A DNA stretch of 64,000 bases from NCBI GenBank assembly GCA_937951485.1, contig CALEDJ010000025.1, positions 1-64,000 on the forward strand. The letters are read 5' to 3'. A program made the translations under genes and the position numbers. The notes below the pieces were generated by a model. It was not told the DNA's origin. It searched no databases and saw only the letters and a program-made list of their open reading frames with translations. This document shows, piece by piece, positions 562 through 43,164 of the stretch (positions are counted from its first letter, which is position 1; every line of letters starts with the position of its first letter). This DNA is from an uncultured bacterium (GTDB lineage Bacteria > Hydrogenedentota > Hydrogenedentia > Hydrogenedentales > CAILVY01).

Positions 562-1728
562 CTAGATGTTGTTATAGCGCAATATCTGGATGAGTTTCCA
601 CGTGAAAGCCGTGAGATGCCACGCGATTGTGCCGAAAATCATGGAGAAAAGAAAACCGTAGGGGAGAAGGATGCTTGCGATGCCGACCGTGGCGGCATTG
701 AACAGGGCGACGCGGTCCGGGAGGGTTTCCGTGAGGCGGCGGGTGAGGGCAAATCCTTCAAAAAACAGGAGTACGCCGAGAATGGGGAGGGGAAATGCAG
801 CGACAATGCCTGAGAATCCGCCGCTGAAGAAGCAGCCGAGGCCAAGGAAAAACAGGCCGTAGAGGAGGGGCGCGCCGCCGGTGCGCGCGCCGAAGAAATG
901 CATGCCGAGCATGCCGCCGGAGCCGTGGCACATGGGGATGCCGCTGAAAAAAGGCGCGATGAGGTTCATAAGGCTGTAGGACAAGCCGATTTGCCGGGTG
1001 GAGATGTTGCGGTGGGGGAAGAGGTCGTTTGCGAGTTGGCCGGTGGCAAAGATGGAATTGCCCAGTGAGACGGGAATCTGTGCGAGGCCAAGCAGAAGGA
1101 ATCCCTGAATAATATCAGTCGCGGCGGGGGTGTACAGCCGGGGGAAGGCAAACCCTGCGGCCCCCGCAATCGCGCTGAGCGAGGCGGCCCCGGAAAGGAA
1201 TGCGTAGGCCATGCCGAGGCCAATGACAAGGAGGGCGGGCGGCACGTGACGATTGCGATAAAGCAGCAAAATCAGCGCCGCGCCGGCGCATGCCAGAACG
1301 CCGCCTTGGACCCCGTCATTTGTTGCATAACCGATCGCCACCTCGATGAGTTTCAGACCCAGCCCGACTTGCAAGCCGAGAATGATTGGTCGGGGGACGA
1401 TCGCCCCCATTCGCGAGACAAGACCCGTCAGTGTCAATACCAGCATCGTTGCGCCGATGGCCAGTCCCGCGCCATAGACCAATGCGGCGGGCAGTTGCTG
1501 GGTAATGACCAACGCAGCCACGACTTTGAGCGGTTGCACCGGCATCGGAATGCCGTAATACAGGGCGGTGAAGAGTTGCGCCGCGCCGAAGAGGATGAGT
1601 ACGCTGGCGGCGTCCATGCCGGACACGAGGATCATACCGGCAATCAGCGGCAGGTCCGTCCCGATGTCTCCAAAGGCACCGCCGAGTTCATGCCGGTCCA
1701 TGCGGATGCGTTCGCGGAGGAATTTCAC
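562..1728 (-). CDS. MOT1-type molybdate/sulfate transporter
   Basis: This 388-residue polytopic inner-membrane protein has about ten hydrophobic segments and the MOT1/sulfate-permease-like pattern: an N-terminal GGAFGDIGTDLPLIAG segment, the PMPVQPLK motif, and a later PMCHGSGG segment. MOT1 proteins import molybdate, and some relatives carry sulfate. The start codon overlaps the mobA stop by 4 bp (ATGA), so it is probably the last gene of the rrf2-mobB-mobA operon. Its place beside Mo-cofactor genes and a molybdoenzyme operon supports molybdate as substrate. The family call is firm and the substrate is inferred. Confidence 0.85.
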   Translation of the reverse strand: MKFLRERIRMDRHELGGAFGDIGTDLPLIAGMILVSGMDAASVLILFGAAQLFTALYYGIPMPVQPLKVVAALVITQQLPAALVYGAGLAIGATMLVLTLTGLVSRMGAIVPRPIILGLQVGLGLKLIEVAIGYATNDGVQGGVLACAGAALILLLYRNRHVPPALLVIGLGMAYAFLSGAASLSAIAGAAGFAFPRLYTPAATDIIQGFLLLGLAQIPVSLGNSIFATGQLANDLFPHRNISTRQIGLSYSLMNLIAPFFSGIPMCHGSGGMLGMHFFGARTGGAPLLYGLFFLGLGCFFSGGFSGIVAAFPLPILGVLLFFEGFALTRRLTETLPDRVALFNAATVGIASILLPYGFLFSMIFGTIAWHLTAFTWKLIQILRYNNI

Positions 1729-2345
1729 GGGAAATCCTTCCGAAGGGGCGCGGGGACGGATCGCGTCGGGGAAATCGCCCTGTCCTCATCGTCCAAATCG
1801 GCGGGCCGGTTGATATTTCTGCATGCGTGCCAATCTTGCGGAAGCGGAAGCGCGCGGCCAAGAATGCGCCCGGAAAAGAACAACGCCGTCATCGCCAGGC
1901 GCCCTTCGGTCATCTGTGTATCTACTGCAGAGGCGACGGAGCAATGAAACAGCGCCGGGAACGGCTCTGGCCGGCGGTCCTGAAAATACACCATCTCGAT
2001 GCCTGCGCGCCGTCCATCGAGCAGAAGTTGCAACCAAACCGGGGAAAGCGGAACCATGTCGCAGGACAGCAGCAGGATCCAGGGTTCGGGCGCGCAGTCC
2101 CGCAGTGCGGCCTGCAATCCACCGAGTGGACCGCATCCGGGATGAATGTCGGCAATGCCGCGTAAGCCAAGATCGGCATACATTTCGGCGCGCCGCGCGA
2201 CCACTGTGATGCGCGAGGCGACGGCCTCTGCCTGTCTGGCGATATGAGAAAGAAGCGGTTTACCGCGCCACAAAGCGCGGGCCTTGTCATTGCCGAATCG
2301 GGAACTCCTGCCTCCCGCGAGGATGTACACGGGCAGCCGGTCCAT
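1725..2345 (-). CDS. mobA: Molybdenum cofactor guanylyltransferase MobA
   Basis: This 206-residue cytoplasmic nucleotidyltransferase shows the MobA signature LAGGRSSRFGNDKA near the N-terminus, a GPLGGLQAAL segment around residue 73 and LLLSCDMV around residue 92 with the metal-binding Asp. MobA transfers GMP from GTP to Mo-molybdopterin to form the guanine dinucleotide cofactor, in its bis form required by DMSO-reductase-family enzymes such as the one encoded at 9009-12482. It starts 2 bp after mobB and overlaps the transporter start by 4 bp, so translational coupling is likely. Confidence 0.93.
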   Translation of the reverse strand: MDRLPVYILAGGRSSRFGNDKARALWRGKPLLSHIARQAEAVASRITVVARRAEMYADLGLRGIADIHPGCGPLGGLQAALRDCAPEPWILLLSCDMVPLSPVWLQLLLDGRRAGIEMVYFQDRRPEPFPALFHCSVASAVDTQMTEGRLAMTALFFSGRILGRALPLPQDWHACRNINRPADLDDEDRAISPTRSVPAPLRKDFP

Positions 2346-2347
2346 CT

Positions 2348-2839
2348 TCAGACGACCTCCGCCAATTCCAGCACGGCCTCGGCGATTTCGGGGATGCGGT
2401 CGCGCTGCCAGATTATCCGGTCCGTCTCAATGGGATCGTTGGAGACGATTCCGCGAATATCGTCGCGCAGCATGGCAATGGGATCGCCGCCGACATCGGC
2501 CCGCCAGACCTCTATCTTGGGGCCTGGGCCGTCCAGGTCGCCTTCTACCAACACAATGTCACAGTGCTCAAAATGGGCGCGGATTGCCGCGTATGATCCA
2601 TTTTCCGCCTGCCGCTGCTGGAAGACAGCCATCTGGGAGGGGGTCAGCACCACGGTGGGTTCTGCGCCCGCCTGCCGGTGCAGGGCGGAGTCTTTGCCGG
2701 GAACGTCCAGCATGTGCTCGTGGCCGCAATGCTTGATGCTTCCCACCCGCATCCCCATCCGGGTCAAGTGCGCGATGAGTTCCGATATCAGTGTGGTTTT
2801 CCCGTGGTTTTTCCGTCCAACAACATGCAACACCTTCAT
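2348..2839 (-). CDS. mobB: Molybdopterin-guanine dinucleotide biosynthesis adaptor MobB
   Basis: A 163-residue P-loop protein begins MKVLHVVGRKNHGKTTL, a Walker A motif in the usual MobB position. It continues with GSIKHCGHEH and a DIVLVEGDLDG segment, both typical of MobB. MobB binds GTP and assists MobA. The frame stays open 33 codons upstream, but the Met directly before the P-loop strand matches family length, so I place the start at 2839. It lies 22 bp after the rrf2 stop and 2 bp before mobA, in one leftward operon. Confidence 0.92.
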   Translation of the reverse strand: MKVLHVVGRKNHGKTTLISELIAHLTRMGMRVGSIKHCGHEHMLDVPGKDSALHRQAGAEPTVVLTPSQMAVFQQRQAENGSYAAIRAHFEHCDIVLVEGDLDGPGPKIEVWRADVGGDPIAMLRDDIRGIVSNDPIETDRIIWQRDRIPEIAEAVLELAEVV

Positions 2840-2861
2840 GATTCTTTCACCTTTTTCCGCG

Positions 2862-3350
2862 TTATTTCCGCTTCCCCTGATCGCCCTGTTTTTTCGTTCT
2901 CCGCGCGCGGCCACGCGGCCCCATTCGTTCGTTTTCACGAGCGCTCTGCGCGATCAAATCCTTCAGCGTCTTCGCATGCAATTGCGTAAAAAGCCGTTCC
3001 CTGGCATTAGCCCACACGCCATGCAGCGGGCACGGGTTCCTGCCCCCGCATTCCGGAAGTCCCAGGATGCAACCGTCAAACGTGTCTTCGCCGTCTACCG
3101 CCCGGATGACTTCATACAAGGTAATCTCAGACGGATCGCGCGTCAGTTCATATCCGCCGCCCGGCCCCAGCACCGCGCGCAAAAAGCCCCCCTGAACCAG
3201 CGATTGCAGCACCTTCCGCGTGTATGGCTCCGGTATGCCGCCACGCCGGCAAACATCCCTGGCCTGAAACCGTTTTACAATGCCTTCGGGCGCGGCGCAC
3301 ATCAGGGCGCGGATGGCATATTCACACCCCTTTGAATACAGTCTGAACAC
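2862..3350 (-). CDS. Rrf2-family Fe-S transcriptional regulator
   Basis: This 162-residue protein has an N-terminal winged helix (KGCEYAIRALM, then GPGGGYELTRDPSEITLYEVI, both typical of Rrf2) and three Cys at 94, 101 and 107 (C-x6-C-x5-C), the arrangement that ligates an Fe-S cluster in IscR and NsrR. It is therefore probably a redox, iron or NO/nitrogen-oxide sensor. It is the first gene of the leftward mob operon and diverges from the NXR-like operon. A GTGGAT-N6-ATCCAG palindrome overlaps the -10 box of its own promoter and two similar sites lie before the divergent operon, so autoregulation and control of the operon are likely. The inducer is not predictable; NsrR, IscR and RsrR branches are all possible. 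Confidence 0.88.
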   Translation of the reverse strand: MFRLYSKGCEYAIRALMCAAPEGIVKRFQARDVCRRGGIPEPYTRKVLQSLVQGGFLRAVLGPGGGYELTRDPSEITLYEVIRAVDGEDTFDGCILGLPECGGRNPCPLHGVWANARERLFTQLHAKTLKDLIAQSARENERMGPRGRARRTKKQGDQGKRK

Positions 3351-3391
3351 GGCGCTCCCTTTTTCTTGCGGCGTAATCCGCGTGCGTTATT

Positions 3392-3409
3392 GTGGATAGG
3401 ATTATCCAG
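3392..3409. promoter_or_regulatory. Putative Rrf2 operator 1
   Basis: An 18-bp palindrome GTGGAT-AGGATT-ATCCAG covers the -10 box of the leftward promoter, about 42 bp upstream of the regulator start. The half sites and 6-bp spacing match the two sites at 3525 and 3549. Confidence 0.75.
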
Positions 3410-3504: not shown

Positions 3505-3533
3505 TTGACAAACGCGGCACAATGGTGGATAAT
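3505..3533 (+). promoter_or_regulatory. Promoter of the NXR-like/Rieske-b operon
   Basis: TTGACA (3505-3510), a 17-bp spacer and GATAAT (3528-3533) form a near-consensus promoter about 90 bp upstream of the first start codon. Its architecture mirrors the divergent promoter exactly, and its -10 box lies inside the palindrome at 3525-3542. Confidence 0.8.
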
Positions 3534-3542
3534 AGCATCCAC
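3525..3542. promoter_or_regulatory. Putative Rrf2 operator 2
   Basis: A perfect palindrome GTGGAT-AATAGC-ATCCAC, extended by a further G/C pair, overlaps the -10 box of the rightward promoter. Confidence 0.78.
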
Positions 3543-3548
3543 CTTTTG

Positions 3549-3566
3549 GTGGATATAGAAATCCAC
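3549..3566. promoter_or_regulatory. Putative Rrf2 operator 3
   Basis: A second perfect palindrome GTGGAT-ATAGAA-ATCCAC begins 24 bp after operator 2, near or just after the expected transcription start. The tandem spacing suggests cooperative binding. Confidence 0.75.
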
Positions 3567-3620: not shown

Positions 3621-5516
3621 ATGGGCGTCAAGGTGGAAGTGCCGGACCGGCAATACTGGAAGGAACAGATCAAGTGCCAGGCGGCGTGCCCGGTACATAC
3701 GGATGCGCGGGGGTATGTGCGGGCCATTGCGGAAGGGGACGACGCGCTGGCCTATCTGATCGCGCGCGGGCCGAATCCGCTGGCCTCGGTGTGCGGGCGG
3801 GTGTGCGGCGCGCCGTGCGAGACGGCATGCCGTCGGGGCGATGTGGACAAACCGATTGCGATCCGCGCGTTGAAGCGCTTCGTGTGTGACCGCTTCGGTC
3901 CGGAATCGCGCAAGGGTGATGGAAGCGCATTCATCGCATTTCTCAAAGAAGCCGCGTTGCGTGCGCAGTCGCGCGCGTGCCTTGACCGGGACGAACTGCT
4001 TTTCCTTCTGCAGGGATTGATGCGAGGCGATGTCACGCCTGTGACGGATAAAAGCGTCGGGGTTATCGGAAGCGGTCCGGCGGGCCTGGCCGCAGCGCAC
4101 GATTTGGCGCTCCTGGGTTTTTCCGTGACGATCTATGAAATGGAGCCGGTGCTGGCGGGCATGCTGACGACGGGAATCCCGGAATACCGTCTGCCGCGCG
4201 ACCTGGTGCGGGCGGAGGTGGACGTTATCCGGGCGATGGGCGTAAAGGCGGTCACCAACTGCCGGGTAGGGGAGGACATATCCTTTCCTGATTTGCGCGC
4301 GCGACACGATGCTGTTGTCATTGCCACGGGCGCCAAGTCCTCGCGGAAATTGAACCTTCCCGGCGCGGACGCCAAGGGCGTTTACGGCGGCGTCGAATTT
4401 CTGCGCGACGTGTTCCTGGGGCGTCCGCCGGCATTGGGACAGCGCGTGGTGGTCATCGGGGGCGGCAACGTCGCCTACGATGTCGGGCGCACCGTGCTGC
4501 GGCAAATCTCGCTGGATGCGGCGCGCACCGCCGTGCGGCGACCCGGCGTGGGCAAAGTGCATTTATGCTCGCTTGAATCGCTGGAGGAAATGCCTGCCGA
4601 CGACATCGAGATCATTGAAGGCGACGAGGAGGGGATTGTCCGCTGCAACAGCGTCGGTCCCAAGGCGATCCTGACCGATGCGCAGGGCGCGGTCCGGGGC
4701 GTGCTGTTTCAGAAATGCCTGCAAGTGTTCGATGCGGACGGTCGCTTCAAGCCGATATTCGACGAGAATGTGACCATGGAGATTCCCTGCGACAACGTCC
4801 TGCTGGCTATCGGCCAGACCTACGACCTCTCATTCATTGACGGCGAACGTGACGGACTGCGCTTGCTTCCCAACGGGTTGATTGAATGCGATCAGGAAAC
4901 TGGCAGGACCAGCGCGCCGGATGTTTTTGTCGCGGGCGACCTCGCCTACGGCACGAAACTTCTGATTCATGCCGTGGCTTCCGGCAAGGCGGTTGCCCGC
5001 ACTATTTATCAGTCGGTGACGGGCCGCGCGCTGCGCGCGGAATCAGTGGAATTGCATTTTCCGCTCGCGGACTATGCGCGCGAACCGGATTACGAGAAAT
5101 TGAAGCGCGTGCCGTTGCCGACGCTCCCGGTCGAACAGCGCCTGGCCAACCCCGCCGCGTTGGTGGAGGAGGGATACGACGAAGGGGCGGCGCGCCGGGA
5201 GGCGTCGCGCTGTCTGAACTGCGGGGTCAACACCATTTTTGACGGTGAAAAATGCGTGTTATGCGGGGGCTGTGTGGAAGTATGTCCGGAATCCTGTCTG
5301 GACATCGTTTCGGCGGGCGAGTTGCAGCCTGTGGCGCCGGTGCCTGCGCTGTTCGATGCCTTGTTGGAGCCGATGTCGCCCGTGCAGGCATCCGCCATTG
5401 TCAAGGACGAGACGCGCTGTATCCGTTGCGCGCTGTGCGCGGAACGCTGCCCCACCGGGGCGATAACGATGGAAGCGTTTCATTTCAAGGAGAATCCGTT
5501 ATGTCAGGGCGTTTAG
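3621..5516 (+). CDS. FAD/NAD(P)-dependent oxidoreductase with N- and C-terminal Fe-S modules
   Basis: This 631-residue cytoplasmic protein resembles the glutamate synthase small subunit/dihydropyrimidine dehydrogenase N-terminal family. Residues 19-90 hold a Cys-rich Fe-S domain (CQAAC, CGRVCGAPCETAC). An FAD-binding GSGPAG lies near residue 150 and an NAD(P)-type GGGNVA near 280. The last 100 residues carry a two-cluster ferredoxin (CVLCGGCVEVCPESC and CIRCALCAERCP). No membrane segment is seen. It is the first gene of the operon, with the SD-like AGGGAG upstream, and its 3' end overlaps the Rieske gene by 16 bp. Its likely role is to pass electrons between NAD(P)H and the quinone/cytochrome b machinery in either direction. 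From memory, FAD/NAD(P) subunits beside Rieske/cytochrome b genes are also described in anammox planctomycetes. Confidence 0.88.
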   Translation: MGVKVEVPDRQYWKEQIKCQAACPVHTDARGYVRAIAEGDDALAYLIARGPNPLASVCGRVCGAPCETACRRGDVDKPIAIRALKRFVCDRFGPESRKGDGSAFIAFLKEAALRAQSRACLDRDELLFLLQGLMRGDVTPVTDKSVGVIGSGPAGLAAAHDLALLGFSVTIYEMEPVLAGMLTTGIPEYRLPRDLVRAEVDVIRAMGVKAVTNCRVGEDISFPDLRARHDAVVIATGAKSSRKLNLPGADAKGVYGGVEFLRDVFLGRPPALGQRVVVIGGGNVAYDVGRTVLRQISLDAARTAVRRPGVGKVHLCSLESLEEMPADDIEIIEGDEEGIVRCNSVGPKAILTDAQGAVRGVLFQKCLQVFDADGRFKPIFDENVTMEIPCDNVLLAIGQTYDLSFIDGERDGLRLLPNGLIECDQETGRTSAPDVFVAGDLAYGTKLLIHAVASGKAVARTIYQSVTGRALRAESVELHFPLADYAREPDYEKLKRVPLPTLPVEQRLANPAALVEEGYDEGAARREASRCLNCGVNTIFDGEKCVLCGGCVEVCPESCLDIVSAGELQPVAPVPALFDALLEPMSPVQASAIVKDETRCIRCALCAERCPTGAITMEAFHFKENPLCQGV

Positions 5517-5968
5517 CACCCGAACCCGTGCCGCGCCGGGATTTTTTGGGGATGGCAGGGCTTGTGAGCGCGGGCGTGGCGATTTTCGGTTCCATCCTCG
5601 GGATGGCGCGTCTGCCCAAGCCGCGCGTGTTGCCGGAGGCGTCAAGCCGATTCCGGGCGGGGCACCCCGCTGAATTCCCGCCGGGTACGGTGAAAATCAT
5701 TTCACATCGCAACGTGCGCATTCTCTCCACCGAGGATGGAATCGCCGCCATGTCGCTCATCTGTACGCACCTCGGCTGCGTCGTCACCGAAACGCCGGAC
5801 GGCTTCCAATGCCCTTGTCACGGGTCCCGGTTCGATACGGAGGGCAAAGTGAAGCAGGGACCCGCACCCCGGGCGCTGGTCTGGTTGTCGGTAACGCGCG
5901 CGGCGGATGGGGCGCTGGTAGTGGACACCGCCCGCGAGGCGCCGCCCAACCAATACTTCAAAGTGTAG
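5501..5968 (+). CDS. Rieske iron-sulfur protein, Tat-exported
   Basis: This 155-residue protein starts with a twin-arginine signal (RRDFLGMAG) whose hydrophobic stretch probably stays as the membrane anchor. The 2Fe-2S ligands are complete: CTHLGC at residues 88-93 and CPCHG at 104-108, which also supply the disulfide pair. The chosen start at 5501 follows AAGGAG by 8 bp and lies inside the end of the upstream gene. Together with the cytochrome b at 5982 it would form a quinol-oxidising bc-type complex facing the periplasm. Confidence 0.95.
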   Translation: MSGRLAPEPVPRRDFLGMAGLVSAGVAIFGSILGMARLPKPRVLPEASSRFRAGHPAEFPPGTVKIISHRNVRILSTEDGIAAMSLICTHLGCVVTETPDGFQCPCHGSRFDTEGKVKQGPAPRALVWLSVTRAADGALVVDTAREAPPNQYFKV

Positions 5969-5981
5969 GGGAGGGCCGGAC

Positions 5982-7529
5982 ATGGCAAGCAGCGCACTCG
6001 CAAGTTTTTGGGAAAACCTCAAGGGACTCCCGCACAGGTTGCGGGATTCCGTGTTGCGCCACGGCGCGCCCACCTCGGACCGGGCGCGGTCCCAGGCGGT
6101 CTTCAGCAATTTCTTCCTGCACATTCACGCCACGCGCGTGCATCCCCGGTCCCTGGGACTGACCGCCACCTTTGGACTCGGCGTCGCGCTGGTGTCGCAG
6201 TTCATCATACTCACGGTCACCGGCGTGCTGCTGATGGTGTACTACAAGCCGTCGGTGGAACTCGCCTACGACAGCATCAAGGATTTGCATTATGTCGTGC
6301 CCACGGGGCGCTTCATACGCAACATCCACCGCTGGGCGGCCCACCTCATGGTGATCACGGTCATCCTGCACATGGCGCGGGTTTTTTTCACGGCCTCCTA
6401 CAAGTCGCCCCGTGAATTCAACTGGGTGCTGGGCATGATCCTCTTTGTCCTGACACTCATGTTCTCATTTACGGGCTATCTGCTGCCCTGGGACCAGTTG
6501 GCCTATTGGGCCATCACCATCGGGGCGAACATCGCAGCGTCGCCCAACGAACTGGTCGCCGCAATGGGATTGCCCGAAATCTTCAACGTGGGCGACTTGC
6601 AGCGCGAACTGCTCCTGGGCGCCACCAGCATTGGTCAGGAAGCCTTGACCCGGTTCTACCTCCTGCATGTGATGGTGCTCCCGATTGTCATGACCATCAT
6701 CATCTGCGTGCATATCTGGCGCATCCGCAAGGACGGCGGCCTGGCGCGCCCGGAAGGCTGCCCGACCGCCGCCGGCAAGGGCGTGGGCGCGCCGGTATCC
6801 GAGGCGCTGCCGCCGTCTGTGGCCCCCACCAAGACCTATGGCTTGATGGCGCTGGTGCGCGACAAGTCGCCCTACACCGGCAAGGTCATGGACGAAACGC
6901 TGCCATCCTGGCCGTATCTGTTGCGCGCGGAATTGCTGGTATTCATGATTACCATGTTGATTTGCGTGGCGCTGGGGCTTCTTTTCGACGCGCCCCTCAA
7001 GGAATTGGCCAGCCCGGATATCCCGGAAAATCCCGCCAAAGCGCCCTGGTACTTTTTGGGCTTGCAGGAAATCGTGTCCTATTCGGCCTTCGTCGGCGGT
7101 ATCCTCATACCGACCATCGCCGTGCTGGGCCTGTTGTTGATTCCTTACCTCGATCGCGAGTCGGAGCCTGGCGGGGTGTGGTTCAGCGGCCGGCGCGGGC
7201 GACGCGTCGCCATTGAATCGCTGGTCTTTGCGATCGCGGCCGCTGCGGCGGCGGTGGGGATCCCGGTCCGATACGGCTGGCTGCGCACCTGGTTCCCCGA
7301 TATTCCGCAGTTGTTCATCATCATTGTGAATCCGGGCAGCCTCCTGACCCTCGCCTATGCCCTGTGGTCTTTGTGGATAATCCGGCGCTTCAACTCGACG
7401 CGCATGGGCGCAATCGCGCTCTTCGTCTGTTTTTTGGCAGGGTTCGTCATTCTGACTTACGTCGGCGTCTCCCTGCGCGGGCCGAATTGGGATTTCTACT
7501 GGAGCCGGGCCGATTGGCCCGTCCATTAA
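5982..7529 (+). CDS. Cytochrome b of a Rieske/cyt b complex
   Basis: This 515-residue membrane protein contains both halves of a bc-type cytochrome b. Haem ligands are H116 and H130 (13 apart) and H229 and H244 (14 apart); the 14 spacing is the b6 type. The second half carries APWY at 354-357 where the quinol-site PEWY normally sits, then more membrane helices. A hydrophilic linker around residues 250-310 joins a b6-like part to a subunit-IV-like part. Extra helices after residue 400 lengthen it beyond a minimal cytochrome b. A GGGGAGGG ribosome site precedes the start, 13 bp after the Rieske stop. Confidence 0.93.
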   Translation: MASSALASFWENLKGLPHRLRDSVLRHGAPTSDRARSQAVFSNFFLHIHATRVHPRSLGLTATFGLGVALVSQFIILTVTGVLLMVYYKPSVELAYDSIKDLHYVVPTGRFIRNIHRWAAHLMVITVILHMARVFFTASYKSPREFNWVLGMILFVLTLMFSFTGYLLPWDQLAYWAITIGANIAASPNELVAAMGLPEIFNVGDLQRELLLGATSIGQEALTRFYLLHVMVLPIVMTIIICVHIWRIRKDGGLARPEGCPTAAGKGVGAPVSEALPPSVAPTKTYGLMALVRDKSPYTGKVMDETLPSWPYLLRAELLVFMITMLICVALGLLFDAPLKELASPDIPENPAKAPWYFLGLQEIVSYSAFVGGILIPTIAVLGLLLIPYLDRESEPGGVWFSGRRGRRVAIESLVFAIAAAAAAVGIPVRYGWLRTWFPDIPQLFIIIVNPGSLLTLAYALWSLWIIRRFNSTRMGAIALFVCFLAGFVILTYVGVSLRGPNWDFYWSRADWPVH

Positions 7530-7541
7530 ACCGGAGCATGC

Positions 7542-8984
7542 ATGATGGAGAAACCGGACATGGAAGTGCTGGACCGGCGCATCAAATGGGCGCTGTTAAT
7601 GGTCAGCCTGCTGACGTTGGTGTTCCTCGCCGCCGCCGCCGTGCAGGAGAATCTGATCGCGGAATGGCGCATTGTCCGCGGCCGCTATGCCCGGATACTC
7701 CGCGAAAAAGCCACGGATGACGCCGGGCGCGAGATTGCGCGTCAATTTGAGAACCGCATCATGCAAAATGTCATTCCCGCCCTGAACATCACCGACCGAT
7801 GCATCACCTGCCACCCCGGCATTGATGATCCGCGCATGGCCGACCAGGAGCAACCCTATCGCACGCATCCCGGCGACTACCTGGAAAAACATCCGCCGGA
7901 GCAATACGGTTGCACCATCTGCCATCAGGGACAGGGCCGGGCAACCGTCTTCGCCGACGCCAAAGCCGCCGATGTGCATTGGGACTATCCCCTTTTGCCC
8001 AAAGAATTCGCGCAATCCAGTTGCGCCATGTGTCATGCGCCCGATGCGATCAAGGAATACGCGCCGCTGGCCGCCCGGGGATATGAACTCTTTGTCGAGA
8101 AAGGCTGTTATGGATGCCACAAGGTGGCAGGTGTCGGCGGTGCGATGGGTCTCCCACTGGACACTGTGGGCGTCAAGAAAAAGGCGGCCTTCCCCTTTGC
8201 GTACATCGAGGGCGATCACACCATCGCCAACTGGCACATTGAACACCTGATGGATCCGCAGAAGATCGTCGCCGGCAGTACAATGAAGAACTACAATTTC
8301 ACCTATGACGAGGCCCTGGCGCTGACAAACTACATCCTGTCATTGCGCGGGCTTGACCTTCCAATGAATTACATCCCCAAGGACCGCATCGAATACGAGT
8401 ATCATAAGGCATTCCGCAAGGCATTGCCCGGCGAGGAACTGTACAAGCGCTATTGTTACGCCTGCCACCAGGACGGTCTCAGTTCTCATTACGATCCCAT
8501 ACTCAAACGTTATATCCCCACCGTCAGGAATCCCGCATTTACCGCGATTGCAACCGATGACTTCCTGAAGAGGAACATCGAGAAGGGCCGCCCCGGCCGC
8601 GACATGCCCGCCTGGGAAGAACAGGCCGGCGGACTGCGCGAGGATGAAATCCTCAATATCGTGGCCTATCTCCGGGGCGATACGCCGTTGTCCCCGGATT
8701 ATGATGAACGTTACCGCGCATCGGGCAATCCGGAAAGAGGCGCGTTCCTCTATGAGCGCAATTGCGCCGGCTGCCATGGGGAGACGGGCCACGGCATCCA
8801 GGCGCCCGCGCTGGCCAATCGCGTTTTCCAGGAAAGCGCCACGGACGCCTATATCAAGGCGACCATCGAGCGGGGACGGCATGGCACCACTATGACGGGT
8901 TTCGCCCAGGACTCGCCGTCTTTCGCCGCATTGACAAGCGCAGAAATAGAAGATTTGGTCACTTTTGTCAAAACCCTGCAATGA
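7542..8984 (+). CDS. Membrane-anchored hexahaem cytochrome c
   Basis: This 480-residue protein has one N-terminal membrane helix (about residues 16-35) and six CxxCH motifs: CITCH 87, CTICH 124, CAMCH 161, CYGCH 189, CYACH 305 and CAGCH 408. The first three sit in a compact multihaem segment and the last three resemble successive monohaem class I cytochrome c domains, so the gene looks like a fusion. It lies 12 bp after cytochrome b and takes the place of cytochrome c1, probably relaying electrons between the Rieske/b complex and the periplasmic molybdoenzyme. ATGs at 7542 and 7545 are both possible starts. Confidence 0.92.
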   Translation: MMEKPDMEVLDRRIKWALLMVSLLTLVFLAAAAVQENLIAEWRIVRGRYARILREKATDDAGREIARQFENRIMQNVIPALNITDRCITCHPGIDDPRMADQEQPYRTHPGDYLEKHPPEQYGCTICHQGQGRATVFADAKAADVHWDYPLLPKEFAQSSCAMCHAPDAIKEYAPLAARGYELFVEKGCYGCHKVAGVGGAMGLPLDTVGVKKKAAFPFAYIEGDHTIANWHIEHLMDPQKIVAGSTMKNYNFTYDEALALTNYILSLRGLDLPMNYIPKDRIEYEYHKAFRKALPGEELYKRYCYACHQDGLSSHYDPILKRYIPTVRNPAFTAIATDDFLKRNIEKGRPGRDMPAWEEQAGGLREDEILNIVAYLRGDTPLSPDYDERYRASGNPERGAFLYERNCAGCHGETGHGIQAPALANRVFQESATDAYIKATIERGRHGTTMTGFAQDSPSFAALTSAEIEDLVTFVKTLQ

Positions 8985-9008
8985 ACCGCTTATATAAAGG
9001 AATTTCCA

Positions 9009-12000
9009 ATGGGCGATGAACCGAGACAGAAACAGAGGCCCAGCCGGCGCGAGTTTCTCGCGATGGGCGCGGCGAGCGGGTTTGCGGCGCTGGTTTCCCA
9101 GGCCACGCGTGCCTGGGGCATCGAAACCGCGACCAACCCGCTGGACGATTACCCCGACCGGGATTGGGAAAGGGTTTACCGCAATATCTTCCAGTATGAC
9201 AGCAAATTCACGTTTCTTTGCGCGCCCAACGACACCCACAACTGCCTGCTGGTGGCGCATGTCAAGAACGGCGTGCTTACCCGCATCAGTCCCTCGTACA
9301 AATACGGCCAGGCCACCGACCTCTACGGCAACAAAGCGTCGCACCGGTGGGACCCCCGGTGTTGTCAGAAAGGATTGGCGCTGGTGCGCCGTTTTTATGG
9401 TGACCGCCGCGTCCGCGGCCCCCATGTAAGAAAAGGCTTCAAGGAATGGGTTGACGCGGGGTTTCCACGCGACCCGGTGACGGGCGCACCGCCTGCCAAG
9501 TATTTCAGACGTGCGGAAGACACATGGCTGCTGCTCTCCTGGGATGAAGCCACGGAAATCGCCGCGAAGGCGCTCCACAACATCGCCGCAACCTATTCCG
9601 GCGAAGAAGGTATTAAGCGGCTCAAGGCGCAGGGGCACTACTCGGAGGAGATGATTGAAGCCTATCAGGGCGTGGGGACGCAGGTACTGAAATTCCGGGG
9701 AGGCATGCCGCTGTTGGGCGCGCGCATCTACGCCATGAACAGGTTCGCCAATTCACTCGCCTTGCTTGACGACCACCTGCGCAAGGTCGGCCCTGATAAC
9801 GCTGTGGGCGGCCGGGGCTGGGACAGTTATTCGTGGCATACCGATCTGCCGCCGGGACATCCCATGGTCACCGGCCAGCAAACCGTGGATTTCGACCTGT
9901 GTTCGGTGGAACATGCGAAGATGGTTGTCGTGTGGGGCATGAATTGGATTTGCACCAAGATGCCCGACGCGCACTGGCTGACGGAAGCCCGGCTCAAGGG
10001 CGTGAAGGTGGTCGTGATTGCCTGCGAGTACAGCGCGACCTCCTCAAAGGCGGACGCGGCCATCGTGGTGCGCCCCGGAACGACGCCGGCGCTTGCCCTG
10101 GGTCTGGCCAACGTCATTATCCAGGAGAATCTGCATGACAAGGATTTCGTGAACAAGTTCACCGACCTGCCGTTGCTGGTCAGGCTCGACACCCGCACCC
10201 TGCTGCGGGCCGGCGACCTGTTCGGCGATCCCCCGGCGGAACTCGGCAACTTCACCAAAGTATTCACCAGGGATGAGACGCCACCGCCGCCGATGCGACA
10301 GCAACTGCAATGGATTCCCAAGGAACTAAGGGATGAATGGGGCGATTTTGTCGCCTGGGACCGCCGCCAGAATGCGCCGGTCAAAATCACGCGCGATCAT
10401 GTCGGTGAAAACTTCAGCGCGTTGCCGATTGATCCTGTGTTGGAGGGAACCTTCGAAGTCACCTTGAAGAACGGTCAAACGGTCCGGGTGGCGCCGGTCT
10501 TTCAACTGATCAAGAACAGCCTGGGCAGGAACTACACGCCCGAGATCACTTCGGAGATCACCTGGGCGCCGAAAGAGTCCATCATTGCACTTGCCCGCGA
10601 GATCGCGAAAAATGCGCGCGCGACGATGTTTCCCGTCGGCATGGGACCGAACCAGTTCTTCAACAACGATCTCAAAGATCGATCGGTGTTCCTGTTGGCG
10701 GCGCTGACCGGAAATATCGGCAATATCGGCGGCAATGTCGGCAGTTACGCGGGCAATTACCGTACCGCGTTGCTGAACGGCTATCCCCAATTCATCTACG
10801 AGAACCCCTTCGACATCGAACTGGACCCGGAGAAGCCCGCGAAAGTGAAACCATACTGGAAGGGAGAATCGGCCCACTTCTTCAATTATGGCGACCGGCT
10901 GCTCAGGGTCGGCGACAAAAACTTCACGGGCAAGGGGCACACGCCCACGCCGACCAAATCGGCATGGCTCTCAAACTCCAATTCGATCATCGGAAACGCC
11001 AAGTGGCATTACGACCTCGTGTACAACACCCTGCCCAAGGTGGAAATGTTGGTGCTGAACGACTGGTGGTGGACGGGGTCCTGCGAATGGGCGGACATCG
11101 TGTTCGGCGTGGATTCCTGGGCCGAAATGAAGCAGTCCGACATGACCGCCTCCGTCACCAATCCATTCCTTACCCTGTTCCCGGAAACGCCATTGCCCAG
11201 AATGTTCGACACCCGGGGCGATATGGAGGTGCTTGCGTTGGTCAGTGAGAAACTCGCCGGCATCACCGGCGACCGCCGCTTCGGCGATATGTGGCGCTTT
11301 GTCAACGAAGGTCGCGCCGACATATATCTCCAGCGCATCCTCAATATGAGCAACTGCACGGCAGGGTACCGTTTCCCCGACCTGCTGGACAAGGCCAAAC
11401 AGGGGATTCCGGCGCTCATGATGACGCGCACCACGCCGAGGTCCGTGGGCTATGAGCACACCCATGAGAATCGCCCCTGGTACACCAAGACCGGAAGACT
11501 CACCTTCTACTGCGAGGATCAGGAATTTCTGGACAACGGCGAAAACCTGCCGGTCCACCGCGAACCGGTGGACTCCACCTTCCACGAGCCGAACGTGATT
11601 GTGTGCGAACCCGACCCGATTGTGAACCCGTTGACGCCACAGGCATGCGGGTTTCCCGAGAGCGACCTGAGCGTGGAAACGCGGCAGGGACGGCATGTCA
11701 TCAAGAGTTGGAAAGAAGTGTCCCAGACGAAGCACCCCCTGATGAAGGACGGCTTCAGGTTCATCATGCACACCCCGAAATACCGCCACGGCGCGCACAC
11801 CACGCCCATTGACACGGACATCGTGGCGGTCTATTTCGGGCCGTTCGGCGACATGTTCCGCCATGACACCCGGATGCCGTTCGTCACCGAGGGCTATGTG
11901 GACATCAACCCAATGGATGCCAGGGAACTCGGTATCGCCGACGGCGACTATGTCTGGATTGACGCGGACCCGTCCGACCGGCCCTATCGCGGACACAAGC

Positions 12001-12482
12001 CCGGCGATGCCGCTTTCAAGGTCTCGCGTCTGCTGGCTCGCGCCCGCTACTACAACGGCACGCCCCGGGGCGTCACCCGCATGTGGTTCAATATGTACGG
12101 GGCCACACCGGGCAGCGTGCGGGGGCAGCGCGAACGCAAGGACGGCCTCGCCAAGAATCCCGACACCAACTACCAGGCGATGTTTCGCGGCGGATCGCAC
12201 CAGAGCGGTACGCGCGCCTGGCTGAAGCCCACCCTCATGACCGACTCATTGGTCCGCAAAGAGGGCATGGGGCACCTCATAAGAAAAGGCTTCCTGCCGG
12301 ATGTGCATTGCCCCACCGGCGCGCCGCGCGAAACCTTCGTGAAAATCACCAAAGCGGAAGACGGCGGGGTCGGCGGCCAGGGGCCGTGGAAGCCTGTCAC
12401 GATGGGCATGCGCCCTGCCAGTGAAAGCGATCAATTCAAGAAGTACCTGAACGGCGGCTATATCGAACAGCCGGAAGCGTAA
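9009..12482 (+). CDS. nxrA: NXR-like molybdopterin oxidoreductase, catalytic alpha subunit
   Basis: This 1157-residue protein has a Tat signal ([13 protein letters not shown]), so it acts in the periplasm. Cys71, His77, Cys79 and the Cys118-Cys119 pair lie where the FS0 cluster is bound in type II DMSO reductases. Asp279 in HTDLPPGHP aligns with the Mo-ligating Asp of NarG. Blocks such as [28 protein letters not shown] and [14 protein letters not shown] are as I remember them from periplasmic nitrite oxidoreductases of Nitrospira and anammox bacteria, and the length agrees. Related enzymes reduce nitrate, selenate, chlorate or perchlorate, so the substrate and direction are not settled by sequence. 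It precedes its beta subunit by 10 bp and needs bis-MGD from MobA/MobB. Confidence 0.88.
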
Positions 12483-12492
12483 GGAAACTCCC

Positions 12493-13620
12493 ATGGCGAA
12501 AGTGTTCAACTGGCAAATCAACCGGGAGACGGACTACTGGTACACCGGCGTGCGTCCCCAGCGGCAGTTCGGGGCCATTTTCGACATCAACAAGTGCATC
12601 GCCTGCCAGACCTGCACCGTGGCCTGCAAGACCACATGGACCGGCGGTCGCGGCCAGGAATACATGTTCTGGAACAACGTCGAGAGCAAGCCCTTCGGCT
12701 GCTATCCCATCATGTGGGATGTGCGCATTCTGGACATGCTCGGCGCGGGCGCCTGGAACGGCGCCACCTACGCCGGCCGCACCATCTTCGAATCCGCACC
12801 CGTGCGCCAGCGCGTGCTGGGATGGCAACCCTCAGACTTCGACTACGCCCACCCCAACATCGGCGAGGATGAAGTGAACCGGCCCATCGAGGGCGGCGCA
12901 TACTTCACGGGCAAACACGCGGCCTGGATGTTCTACCTGGCACGCATCTGCAACCACTGCACTTATCCGGCATGCCTCGCCGCGTGTCCGCGCGGCGCCA
13001 TCTACAAGCGGAAAGAGGACGGCATCGTGCTGGTGAACCAGAAGCATTGCCGGGGATACCAGGAATGCGTGAAGGCATGCCCGTACAAAAAGGTTTTTTA
13101 CAACGCTGTCGAGGGCGTATCGCAGAAGTGCATCGCCTGTTATCCGGCGATCGAACGCCGGGAACAGCCGCAGTGCTTCATGGCCTGCATCGGAAAAATC
13201 CGCATGCAGGGATGGATCAACCCGCCCGAACGGATTGTTGAAGACAACCCCCTGGATTACCTCGTTCACATCCGGAAAGTGGCGCTGCCGCTTTTCCCGC
13301 AGTTGGGACTCGAACCCAATGTCTATTACATTCCGCCGGTCCACGTCTCCGATGCCTTTCTCACACAGATGTTCGGCCCCGGCGCAAGAAAGGCTGTGGA
13401 AACCTATCTCCAGGCGCGAAAAGACAAGACCCTGGCGGGCATTTTCACGCTGTTGGGATCGACGCCCCACACGGTCTCGTTTTTCAAGATAGAAGGCGAC
13501 GAAGCGGTCGGGTTCGATGATGACCGGAATGAAACCTGTCGGGTTCCCATCAGCGAACCAGTCGTTACCCGTGATGCATTCGATGAAATACTTCAGGTGG
13601 GCAGGCACAACATCACATGA
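12493..13620 (+). CDS. nxrB: NXR-like iron-sulfur beta subunit
   Basis: This 375-residue NarH/NxrB-type protein carries four cluster-binding groups: C35/C38/C41/C45, C153/C156/C161/C165, C186/C192/C196 and C213/C216/C228/C232. Tyr189 replaces a Cys in the third group (CRGYQEC), matching the 3Fe-4S site of NarH where Trp occupies that place. The first group keeps all four Cys ([11 protein letters not shown]), whereas Nitrospira-type NxrB, as I recall it, has Asp in the fourth position. There is no signal peptide, as expected for co-export with the Tat-tagged alpha subunit. It should pass electrons from the alpha subunit to the haem gamma subunit. Confidence 0.9.
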
Positions 13621-13678
13621 CGGCGCGCCCGCGCGTCGGGCATTAGCATCAAAAAAAAGATGAAGCACAGGTGAAAGC

Positions 13679-14572
13679 ATGAAAAGAATCGGTTCCATAA
13701 TGCTTCTTATGGCGCTCACGTCCTGCGGCAACGAGCCTCCTGTATCGCTGGATCGTATCAAAGCGACCTACGCCGAGGGCGACCTGCGCGGCATAACGAT
13801 GGAAGACCCGCGTTGGAAAGCCGCCGTCGAAACCCCCATAACGCTCGCGAAACAGTTGATCGCTTTACCCAAGTCTGAGAATGACGGTGTTACGGAAATC
13901 AGGATCAAGGCTCTTTACAATGAGTCTTGGACGGCATTCCTGCTGACTTGGGATGATCCCACGCCGGACCATCTCGCCCGGATTGGCAAATACAGCGATT
14001 CGATTGCCATCCAGTTTCCCGGCGTTCCGGGCGATCTTCCGGACAGCGCGATGGGCGGTGCGCCGGGGAGCGCGCGCCCCGTCGTCATCCACCAGTGGAA
14101 AGCGGTCTGGCAGGAAGCCGAGGCCGGCAATATCGAAGGCATCAGAACCTTCTATCCCAACACATGGAGCGACATCTACATCTTCGAAATGGCCAAAGAC
14201 GACACCGCCAGAGCGGTCATGGAACGCACCTTCACCACGTCCGTCGCCGCTGAGAATCCCCTGGCCCACCACGGCACCGCCGTCCGCGACCTGGAATCCG
14301 TCGGTTTCGGTTCCGTGGAATTCGCCGCCGAGCAGACGTCCGCCGGATACGGCCAGTGGGAAAACGGCCAATGGCGGGTGATCATCTCCAGACCCATCGC
14401 GCGCGACCGCGGCGCTTTGGATACCTCGCGCCTTTTCTATGCCGCCTTTGCCGTGTGGGACGGGTCGCGCCTTGAAGTCGGCGCGCGCAAGATGCAAAGT
14501 TCCTGGTTTCCCATTCAGTTCGTCAAGAAGCCCGATGGCGCGGGCGCACAAAGGCCCCATGGTTCTCACTGA
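13679..14572 (+). CDS. Haem-b gamma subunit (ethylbenzene-dehydrogenase-like), lipoprotein
   Basis: This 297-residue exported protein has a short signal with lipobox ALTSC (Cys at about residue 16). Its body resembles the gamma subunit of type II DMSO reductases (EbdC, SerC, DdhC, NxrC class), with beta-strand segments such as IRIKALYNESWTAFLLTWDD and a C-terminal AAFAVWDGSRLEVGARKMQ. These subunits bind one haem b through Met and Lys; the KMQSSW segment is a candidate place for a ligand, but I cannot assign ligands confidently. A lipid anchor would hold the alpha-beta-gamma complex at a membrane. It follows the beta gene by 58 bp and precedes the chaperone by 5 bp. Confidence 0.83.
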   Translation: MKRIGSIMLLMALTSCGNEPPVSLDRIKATYAEGDLRGITMEDPRWKAAVETPITLAKQLIALPKSENDGVTEIRIKALYNESWTAFLLTWDDPTPDHLARIGKYSDSIAIQFPGVPGDLPDSAMGGAPGSARPVVIHQWKAVWQEAEAGNIEGIRTFYPNTWSDIYIFEMAKDDTARAVMERTFTTSVAAENPLAHHGTAVRDLESVGFGSVEFAAEQTSAGYGQWENGQWRVIISRPIARDRGALDTSRLFYAAFAVWDGSRLEVGARKMQSSWFPIQFVKKPDGAGAQRPHGSH

Positions 14573-14577
14573 AGATC

Positions 14578-15159
14578 ATGAATATGCCCGATGAAAAAAA
14601 ATTTCATGATGTTCTGACCACTTCAGCGGCGTTTCGCCTGTTTTCTCTTTGTTTTCAGCATCCCCGTCCGGGACGGCAACGGGAATTGGAAGAACTCTGC
14701 CGCGAAGTCGGCGGCCCCGCCAATCAACTCCTGGCACTGTCCCCCGACAAGGAAAACGATTATCATTTCATTCTCGGCGCCGGCGGCGTCTGTTCCCCCT
14801 GCGAATCGGAATATGTCGGCGACCGCCTGGGCGGCAAAGGCCCCCTCATGGCCGATGTGGCCGGATTCTACCGTGCCTTTTCCTTCGACCACCGCGTTGA
14901 GATCAACGAATCCGTGGACCATATCGCTGTTGAGTTGTCATTCCTGTCCTACCTGAATTTCAAGAAGGCATATGCGCTGTTCCGGGGAAATCCCGACGAA
15001 TTACGACGTTGCGACGACGCCCTCGATAAGTTCAGGGAACAGCATCTTCTGCTTTGGATTGGACCCTTCAACGAAAGACTCCACGCAAGCGCTCCGGATT
15101 CCTTCTACGCCCGCGCCTCCGCGCTCATGTGCGAATACTTCAGCAGGGCCACTTCCTGA
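14578..15159 (+). CDS. TorD/NarJ-family molybdoenzyme chaperone
   Basis: This 193-residue cytoplasmic, mostly helical protein shows the TorD/DmsD pattern: a CSPCESEYVGD segment around residue 80 (family form PPYESEY), then LMADVAGFYRAF and a downstream DHIAVELSFLSYL helix. Such chaperones bind the Tat signal of the catalytic subunit and hold it until the Mo cofactor is inserted. It is the last gene of the operon. A second ATG two codons in is an equally good start. Confidence 0.9.
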   Translation: MNMPDEKKFHDVLTTSAAFRLFSLCFQHPRPGRQRELEELCREVGGPANQLLALSPDKENDYHFILGAGGVCSPCESEYVGDRLGGKGPLMADVAGFYRAFSFDHRVEINESVDHIAVELSFLSYLNFKKAYALFRGNPDELRRCDDALDKFREQHLLLWIGPFNERLHASAPDSFYARASALMCEYFSRATS

Positions 15160-17942: not shown

Positions 17943-19312
17943 TTATTGCGGGTGTATGTGGCAAATGCCGCCGGCGGTTGTTTCAAAGGGATCGTTGCTT
18001 TCGGCCAACATTGTCTGGCCATGACAGGTGCTGATGAGGGTGGCGGCGACAACTATGCACGGTTGACCGAAGTCCGAACGGATTACGGCGTCTTTCAGGC
18101 GCCCCTCATGCCGGCGAATATCCACCTGGAATCCCCCGCGCGCACGCAATCCGGTCGCTTCCCCTTCCGGCCAGGCATCGGGCAGCGCCGGGAGCAAATG
18201 GATTTTTCCCGCATGACTCTGGAGAAGCATTTCGGCAATACCGGCCGCACCGCCAAAATTACCGTCAATCTGAAAGAGGGGGGGATTATCGAAGAGGTTC
18301 GGGACGGTTGATTTTGTGATCAGGGCGCAAAGGTTGTCGTGGGCGGCGTTGCCGTCGTGAAGCCGTGCGAAGAAGTTGATTATCCAGGCGCGGCTCCATC
18401 CGGTGCGCCCGCCGCCATGGGCGATCCGGCGTTCCAACGTTTTCCGGGCGGCAGCCGCCAGTTCAGGCGTGCCGTCCGGGGTGATGGCATCCCCCGGATG
18501 AAGCGCATACAGATGGGACATATGCCGGTGTCCAGACTCCGGTTCTTCATAGTCTTCAAGCAGCCATTCCTGTAAGTGCCCAAGCCTGCCGATCCTGTTC
18601 GGGGCGAGACGCTCGCGCGTCTCCGCCAATTGCTGACGGAAACCTTTTTCCATCGCGTACTGCCGCTTCTCGGGTCACGATGAAGGCGCACCGTCAAGTC
18701 CAGCCTGCCCGGGCCGGAAACATCGAGGCGGATAATCAGCGCATTGTCGGGAACGCTGATGAAATGCCTCCTATCGTACAGGATTTCTCCCATACGACAG
18801 GACACACGGGCAACACCCGTTTCCAGATTAAGAAGGCGTCTATATTCTGAAGCCTCTTCCCCCGACAAAAAGGTCAGACACAGATCGCCCAGCATCCGGC
18901 AGGAGCCGCAGGGATCACAGGCGCCATTGCCACGACCGGATCCCACGCCCCGGCATACGAGCCGTTTACTGGCCGACCGGTCCGCCGCCGCGACCTTGCC
19001 TTCAAAGAGCAGACGTCGAATTTCGGGAAGCGCATTCAAGGCGTCGGGATCATCCGCATCCTGCGAGTGACCTGACCACAGACTCTCCTCGTTCAAAGCA
19101 ATGCGCTCTTCCTTTACCCCCCCGAATACCATGGCGCCATTGGCGCCATTGCCACGCGGTAGCGCCTCGACCCAACCTTGGGCCGGCGCCGCGTACCAGA
19201 GTTCGGATTCTTCCACTGGATTTGATTCAGAAACGCCAAGCAATGATAAAATCCCCGCAATTGTTCTCAGAACCATGAAAGTCCGCCGTTCCATGTCTTT
19301 CCAGACCCGCAA
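17943..19312 (-). pseudogene. GH95 alpha-L-fucosidase remnant with internal deletion
   Basis: Two pieces of one GH95 enzyme lie in different frames. The N-terminal piece (19294 or 19312 down to about 18680) has ELWYAAPAQGWVEALPRGNG and NEESLWSG and runs about 215 residues to [10 protein letters not shown]. The C-terminal piece (about 18676 down to 17943) has [27 protein letters not shown] and [12 protein letters not shown], typical of the GH95 C-terminal half with its conserved Asp. GH95 enzymes are about 750-800 residues; some 300 residues, including the central catalytic part, are missing at a frame-shifted junction near 18655-18690. A clean deletion is likelier than sequencing error because coding material is absent. 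Confidence 0.8.
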
Positions 19313-19383
19313 GGTGCCTGGTAGAGCATTCGTGATCCGACAGGGCTGTGCATTCGTGTTCGGTTATTGCGTGATTCTTCATT

Positions 19384-19456
19384 GCTGGATTCCCGCTTGC
19401 GCGGGAACGCTGATCGTCGAACGCTGGCATTGCGCGCTGGATGTAAAAATCCAGCA
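19384..19456. repeat. Dispersed palindromic repeat
   Basis: TTCCCGC-TTGC-GCGGGAA (19390-19407) is a perfect 7-bp-stem hairpin, followed by CTGGAT-GTAAAA-ATCCAG (19438-19455). The first hairpin belongs to a palindromic repeat class seen in many bacterial genomes. It lies between the GH95 remnant and the next gene. Confidence 0.6.
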
Positions 19457-19510
19457 GTCGGTTTTCAGGAGACTCCTTCGCGTTGTCGGTTGCCGGATAG
19501 GGGAGGAGTC

Positions 19511-42952: not shown

Positions 42953-43164
42953 AGACCACCTTCATAACGCCGCAGAACGCAGACCTCGCGGTTGGTTTCA
43001 AGGGGAGGGAAGCATAGCACAAGACGTTCAGGACAGTCAAAAGCCGCGCGCGCTTGACATTGTAGTCGCATTTGCGCGAATCTGTAGGAAATGGAAGGCC
43101 GGTCGGGTGAGGCAAGCCTGCGACCGGCGTGTGCGGCCAAACCATTACCAAAGGGAGGCATCTC

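Follow-up and report, generated by a model that had tools for sequence, protein, structure and literature searches.

The 64-kb window analysed here (positions 1 to 64,000 of contig CALEDJ010000025.1, from an uncultured bacterium of the phylum Hydrogenedentota) carries eight collinear open reading frames (ORFs) on its forward strand (3621-15159), all in the same orientation. As judged from their sequences, they form a complete gene set for passing electrons from quinol and NAD(H) on to nitrate. The genes, whose order F-R-b-c-A-B-G-D gives the designations used below, are:

3621..5516, forward strand, F: cytoplasmic FAD/NAD(P) 4Fe-4S oxidoreductase with an NfnB/GltD-like core (Fer4_20, Pyr_redox_2, C-terminal 2x4Fe-4S)
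5501..5968, forward strand, R: Rieske [2Fe-2S] protein with a Tat-like anchor (CTHLGC/CPCHGS; S109 invariant)
5982..7529, forward strand, b: cytochrome b6 fused to a subunit-IV-like half with five transmembrane helices (TM) (Cytochrome_B N-domain; His116/130/229/244)
7542..8984, forward strand, c: membrane-anchored hexahaem cytochrome c (6 CxxCH, Cytochrom_C domains, N-terminal helix 12-56)
9009..12482, forward strand, A: Tat-exported catalytic subunit of the nitrite oxidoreductase (NXR) type (FS0 C71/D75/C79/C119, substrate Asn74, molybdenum (Mo) ligand Asp279)
12493..13620, forward strand, B: four-cluster Fe-S subunit of the NxrB/NarH type, with 15 conserved Cys
13679..14572, forward strand, G: lipoprotein-like haem-b subunit of the EbdC/NXR-C type (EB_dh, PF09459)
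14578..15159, forward strand, D: assembly chaperone of the TorD/dimethyl sulfoxide (DMSO) type II kind (Nitrate_red_del/TorD)

F and R overlap by 16 bp, and the other genes follow each other at distances of 13 (R-b), 12 (b-c), 24 (c-A), 10 (A-B), 58 (B-G) and 5 bp (G-D), giving a range of -16 to +58 bp. Pfam and NCBIfam assigned the expected families to all eight proteins, and one good promoter, described below, lies upstream. The same gene order recurs in dozens of genomes of Acidobacteriota, Planctomycetota, Myxococcota and Actinomycetota, with 4-bp overlaps found across phyla, which indicates that the grouping is more than chance; about five bacterial phyla share the operon as a conserved unit. 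A preliminary description of this DNA had proposed a single tight unit with all cofactor motifs, in which NAD(P) and a Rieske/b complex are joined to an NXR-like molybdoenzyme, and had suggested searching other genomes for the same order. All ORFs were recovered, the motifs are present throughout the set (translations, CxxCH counts, Pfam, NCBIfam), and the idea of a dedicated chain is supported as well.

The similarity of the molybdoenzyme to NXR, also suggested earlier, was confirmed. A matches Kuenenia NxrA (PDB 7b04) over its full length (889 bits, 42% identity), with weaker matches to PcrA (177 bits), EbdA (148) and NarG (about 138). The FS0, substrate and Mo ligand positions described for the Kuenenia enzyme (PMC8387239) are retained: C71, N74, D75, C79, C119 and D279 of A align with Kuenenia C67, N70, D71, C75, C115 and D275, so that an FS0 cluster with three Cys and an Asp ligand, the substrate Asn, the Mo-Asp and Tat export are all found in A. 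The hallmarks of canonical cytoplasmic NarGHI are lacking, with a Cys at the His position of FS0, an alpha subunit outside the NarG clade and a gamma subunit that is EB_dh rather than NarI. The B and G families are likewise shared with Kuenenia NXR. Residues M125 and K271 of G are invariant across 29 loci and provide the Met/Lys haem-b ligand pair of EbdC/NXR-C gamma subunits; their equation with Met155/Lys305 of NXR-C (PMC8387239) relies on shared family and conservation rather than on a pairwise alignment. Beside the Mo-Asp, however, A has a NarG-like WHTDLPPG where NXR has WHGDQAPG.

The alpha subunits also belong to a separate clade. The tree was a quick search with support from the Shimodaira-Hasegawa-like approximate likelihood ratio test (SH-aLRT), and its NXR side comprises Kuenenia (a rebuilt sequence), NC10 and four relatives, Nitrospira and Nitrospina lying outside the sampling. 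Kuenenia NxrA and the NC10 copy form a group of their own (SH-aLRT 100), the window clade stands on the side of Methanoperedens NarG, and A does not fall inside the NxrA clade defined by these references. The NarG proteins of Thermus and Variovorax are far outgroups; branching of alpha within ordinary NarG, which the preliminary description regarded as an outcome that would overturn its proposal, was thus not found. The NC10 bacterium CSP1-5 (L067) harbors both an NXR-like and a Nar-like molybdoenzyme, one in each alpha clade, about 8 kb apart.

Loci with F-R-b-c constitute one clade of the alpha tree (branch 97), with three changes over the 70 rows that have enough flank, which corresponds to one gain and about two losses. 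Seeming absences within this clade are mostly contig ends and were rescored by upstream length. The 80 named loci were chosen by closeness to the window alpha, and frequencies among them do not represent prevalence. Relatives in Methanoperedens, Thioalkalivibrio and Magnetococcales possess the molybdoenzyme genes without F-R-b-c. The two parts of the operon are inherited together: when loci are compared in pairs, the distances for each front-end protein (F, R, b, c) track those of A (rho 0.84-0.87, 0/1000 permutations), the F-b distance correlation is 0.92, and c tracks G more closely than F in all 1000 bootstraps. A further claim, that c follows A more closely than b, was dropped as it held in 93% of bootstraps only. 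Among 68 genomes of the window's phylum, a sample spanning one order and 11 families, the full operon was seen in two (G000, that is the host, and G017), and in a third (G039) it is cut by a contig end; the others contain a more NXR-like enzyme in a different gene order, or none. The nearest named alpha relative (L024, JAHFER010000001.1) is labelled Nitrospirae, but its contig is 6 kb long and its kin belong to the window's phylum, so this may be a case of misbinning.

Within the front end, the Glu in the SLExxEEMPAD motif of F suggests that F uses NAD rather than NADP. The closest PDB match of R is 9rk4, entitled 'Similar to the Rieske Protein II of bc1 complex', a title from which we take it, with high probability, to be one or the other Rieske protein of the two Kuenenia complexes. 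Cytochrome b and the subunit-IV-like part form one chain in the window and are separate genes in five relatives; an AlphaFold 2 model, which was weak (predicted local distance difference test score 61) and served for the helix count alone, gave 4+5 long helices. Besides the four His of the list, b has a fifth, His47, in an N-x-x-L-H motif before TM1. All 93 F-linked cytochromes b examined keep this His, whereas 16 F-unlinked cytochromes b from the same genome set have E, K, Q or R at the position; since the copies are related by descent, the counts do not represent independent events. The cytochrome b of L261 has the N-x-x-L-H motif with no F seen within its short flank, and in that of L241 a His aligns at the position but the motif is lacking. 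A Cys for haem cN is not present in b, in which Gln73 aligns with b6 Cys35, and occurs in just 5 of 53 Nxr-linked copies. In the window and most of its relatives, an electron path to F can therefore not need haem cN.

The closest known counterparts of the front end are the anammox complexes Kustd1480-1485 and Kuste4569-4574 (PMC12954380). These combine a Rieske protein, a b6-like cytochrome b, a five-TM subunit-IV-like part, a multihaem cytochrome c and an FAD/NAD(P) Fe-S subunit, and the same components are encoded together in F-R-b-c. For the anammox complexes, bifurcating NAD(P)H production has been proposed, not shown, and high Rieske potentials were measured (PMC12954380). An extra His before TM1 is present in their b subunits too, and AlphaFold 3 models place an additional haem b on this residue (His43/His62; PMC12954380); by its position His47 may correspond to it, which is suggestive of a similar haem in the window protein. 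Differences are the fusion of b to subunit IV, the missing haem-cN Cys and the partner, which is an NXR/Nar-type molybdoenzyme in the window operon and an octahaem HAO-like protein or none in the anammox bacteria. The R/b genes of Kuenenia have other locus numbers, away from its nxr cluster.

Thermogutta terrifontis R1 (G256/L144), a cultured heterotroph, carries the same operon (THTE_1506-1512, PMC5673643), with D, G, B, A, c, b, R and F adjoining. In the part of that paper covered here, the locus appears as a cytoplasmic NarGHI (THTE_1509-1507) alongside a 'complex III' (THTE_1510-1512), and the F gene, the conservation of the locus and its kinship to NXR are not discussed. The NarG of Methanoperedens nitroreducens (L101/L103; PMC4683180) is a proposed nitrate reductase which is exported and 58% identical to A, but it has its own partners (NapH-like, HCO II-like) and F-R-b-c does not occur in the 10 kb upstream. 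The idea of a nitrate reductase on the positive side of the membrane, fed by a co-encoded Rieske/cytochrome b complex, has also been discussed for haloarchaeal nar operons, for which an F gene is not reported (PMC4683180); in the one haloarchaeal homologue locus that was read (L105), no Rieske/b gene was found within 15 kb. The earlier statement that bc complexes are usually encoded elsewhere is thus in part corrected, as Rieske/b genes adjoin nitrate reductase genes in haloarchaea and T. terrifontis, and anammox bacteria are known to have Rieske/b-NAD(P) complexes. A search of the open literature (subscription journals lay outside it) found no earlier account of the complete operon, nor of a pairing between F-R-b-c and NosZ or cbb3.

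F is present in 23 of 294 Planctomycetota and 85 of 396 Acidobacteriota genomes, and the enzyme encoded with it varies. Distinct F copies with R, b and enough flank have as partner an NXR-like enzyme (53 copies), NosZ (16; 885-925 bits in the loci scanned), cbb3 (12), NarG (4), a NapA/Fdh-like enzyme (2) or an octahaem cytochrome (1), with none seen in 6. On the F tree the partner kinds cluster, with nine changes where six is the least possible, and the NXR-like enzyme became a partner on at least two occasions. The haem number of c varies with the partner, being mostly 6 with NXR-like enzymes, 5 with NosZ, 10 with NapA-like enzymes and 7 with cbb3, and we read c as a putative adaptor between front end and terminal enzyme. 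The pairing of F-R-b-c with enzymes acting on N2O, O2 or nitrite points to a general, little-studied respiratory complex. Going further, one might tentatively regard F-R-b as a widespread b6f-like bifurcating complex, which would transfer electrons from quinol to NADH while the other electron goes to a plugged-in acceptor enzyme via an exchangeable multihaem c, the fifth His of b holding an extra haem toward the flavin. The anammox complexes would then be one case, nitrate would be the acceptor of the window operon, and acceptors overall would include nitrate, N2O, O2 and nitrite; we consider this extended proposal somewhat less probable than its negation.

Individual loci illustrate this variation. 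In seven Acidobacteriota loci (L207, L209, L212, L216, L220, L222, L227), clade II NosZ and NosD/F/L/Y-like genes directly follow F-R-b-c, and an NAD-linked Rieske/b front end would there serve N2O reduction. Loci L232-L240, L146, L147 and L225 combine F-R-b-c with the cbb3 genes CcoN-CcoO; in Acidobacteriota the order is mostly R-b-c-CcoN-CcoO-F, with F relocated to the end. Two loci (L136, L138) encode F-R-b with a decahaem c, a NapA/Fdh-like enzyme and NapG-like ferredoxins.

The preliminary description left open whether the enzyme drives nitrite electrons uphill to NAD(P)+ or reduces nitrate. The evidence now favours nitrate, and in all likelihood the window enzyme works as a nitrate reductase. 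T. terrifontis grows anaerobically with nitrate and converts nitrite to ammonium by Nrf, as its authors reported (PMC5673643). The host genome (4.55 Mb) also carries NrfHA; a suspected internal stop in its nrfA turned out to be the normal stop codon. RuBisCO was not found in the host, nor in most operon carriers, and no NapA or NarG occurs among the host's four molybdopterin matches, as identified from their sequences. These facts favour nitrate reduction, as do the NarG-like WHTDLPPG by the Mo-Asp, the position of alpha apart from the NxrA clade, and the service of the same front end to NosZ, cbb3 and NarG, which are plain terminal reductases.

The operon is thus likely to encode a periplasm-facing respiratory nitrate reductase that is made as one unit with its own quinol-oxidising Rieske/b complex and an NAD branch. 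From gene content and cofactor residues we infer the following path. At its Qp site, R-b would oxidise menaquinol. One electron would leave through the Rieske cluster and the hexahaem c, continue over the haem b of G and the Fe-S clusters of B, and reduce nitrate to nitrite at the Mo centre of A. The other electron would travel over the b haems to the cytoplasmic side; F would dock there and most likely pass it to NAD+ (bifurcation). In the host, NrfHA may reduce the nitrite onward to ammonium. That electrons reach the molybdoenzyme via R-b-c is highly probable and that F acts on the b haems is probable, while the chances of net NAD+ reduction by the F branch are about even. The NQR of the host and its separate caa3-type oxidase cluster also count in favour of this reading. 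Several points weigh against this proposal. Kuenenia NXR operates in both directions (PMC8387239), so that the sequence by itself leaves room for nitrite oxidation. Other NADH dehydrogenases occur in the host genomes, and oxidases in most, which makes the need for an NAD branch unclear. The correspondence of Kuenenia His43/His62 to His47 is one of position and motif, not of alignment, and the haem-cN Cys of the anammox complexes is missing from the window b.

The alternative that survives best, though we consider it unlikely, retains the nitrate reductase and reverses the NAD branch: F would feed electrons from NADH to cytochrome b, at its haems or at the Qn site, giving a self-contained NADH-to-nitrate chain with Q-cycle proton translocation. 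Gene content marks the host as a sugar degrader, NuoD was not found in it, and the Glu in the F site suggests NAD(H), all of which would suit this direction. Yet the host has NQR, and complex I is present in most operon carriers; a role for F as complex I replacement in the host, also considered, is weakened by the same NQR. In addition, NADH input was argued to waste energy, and the high potentials of the Rieske proteins in the anammox relatives are in keeping with bifurcation (PMC12954380). Less probable still is that F is an unrelated soluble flavoprotein sharing the transcript, with R-b-c an ordinary quinol:cytochrome complex whose Q cycle feeds the nitrate reductase. The docking of F is predicted, as are the Kuenenia models, but the close F-b distance correlation, the retention of F with R-b across six partner kinds, even when shifted to the end of cbb3 operons, and the restriction of the His47 signature to F-linked b all connect F to cytochrome b. 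A nitrite oxidoreductase that uses the proton motive force to push its electrons uphill to NAD(P)+ by way of the Rieske/b complex appears very improbable. It would agree with the NXR-type active site of A, with the bidirectional Kuenenia enzyme and with a 2023 study that guessed NXR for this broad clade in Planctomycetota (PMC10732223); however, the heterotroph T. terrifontis reduces nitrate, alpha falls outside the NxrA clade, the NosZ and cbb3 served by the same front end only take up electrons, and RuBisCO was found neither in the host nor in most carriers. Least probable of all is a different substrate (selenate, chlorate, perchlorate, arsenate or a hydrocarbon). In its favour are kinship within the type II DMSO reductase family, the sole support for the selenate or chlorine oxyanion raised earlier, and NCBIfam matches that stop at family level. 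Against it stand the NXR-like substrate Asn and FS0 Asp and the far weaker PcrA and EbdA matches; the MobA/MobB/MOT1 neighbours suit any Mo enzyme.

The window operon offers nitrate as a candidate partner for Rieske/b-NAD(P) complexes, and in other lineages this front end is paired with NosZ, cbb3 and further terminal enzymes. For one of the two anammox complexes the favourable partner reaction is unnamed, and the organisms are not genetically tractable (PMC12954380). Since the operon occurs in the cultured T. terrifontis R1, the pairing evidence makes Rieske/b-driven NAD+ reduction directly testable. A caution also follows for metagenomes, where NXR-like alphas of this kind should not be called nitrite oxidisers.

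Upstream of F, a divergent gene group and the control region comprise:

562..1728, reverse strand: MOT1-type molybdate transporter (PF16983, 152 bits)
1725..2345, reverse strand: MobA-like molybdenum cofactor guanylyltransferase (LAGGRSSRFGNDKA motif in the translation, adjacency to MobB)
2348..2938, reverse strand: MobB, adaptor of MGD (molybdopterin guanine dinucleotide) biosynthesis (TIGR00176, 110.9 bits against a cut-off of 76.2)
2862..3350, reverse strand: Rrf2-family regulator (IscR/RirA/NsrR-like, three Cys; PF02082, TIGR00738 above cut-off)
3390..3409, forward strand: operator-like palindrome TTGTGGATAGGATTATCCAG, covering the -10 box of the divergent promoter
3429-3401, reverse strand: divergent twin promoter of the TTGACA-17-GATAAT form
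3505..3533, forward strand: operon promoter TTGACA-17-GATAAT, matching 11 of 12 consensus positions
3523..3542, forward strand: operator-like palindrome covering the -10 box of the operon promoter, with a second copy at 3547-3566

Regulation and Mo supply thus adjoin the operon. The three GTGGAT-N6-ATCCAC-like palindromes span both -10 boxes, and the exact form occurs twice in the whole 64 kb, as the pair at the operon promoter. The sister genome G017 has the same promoter layout upstream of F, with one near-exact palindrome copy at the equivalent place, and Rrf2 genes adjoin F in further loci too.

Elsewhere in the window, a GH95 fucosidase (17943-19312, reverse strand) is present as two overlapping pieces without the middle of the catalytic domain and is a decayed or misassembled gene. 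A frame at 19367-19500 encodes DSSLLDSRLRGN, which resembles a translated dispersed palindromic repeat, and at 43129-44544 (forward strand) a MauG/CCP-type cytochrome c peroxidase is fused to a Haem_bd domain.

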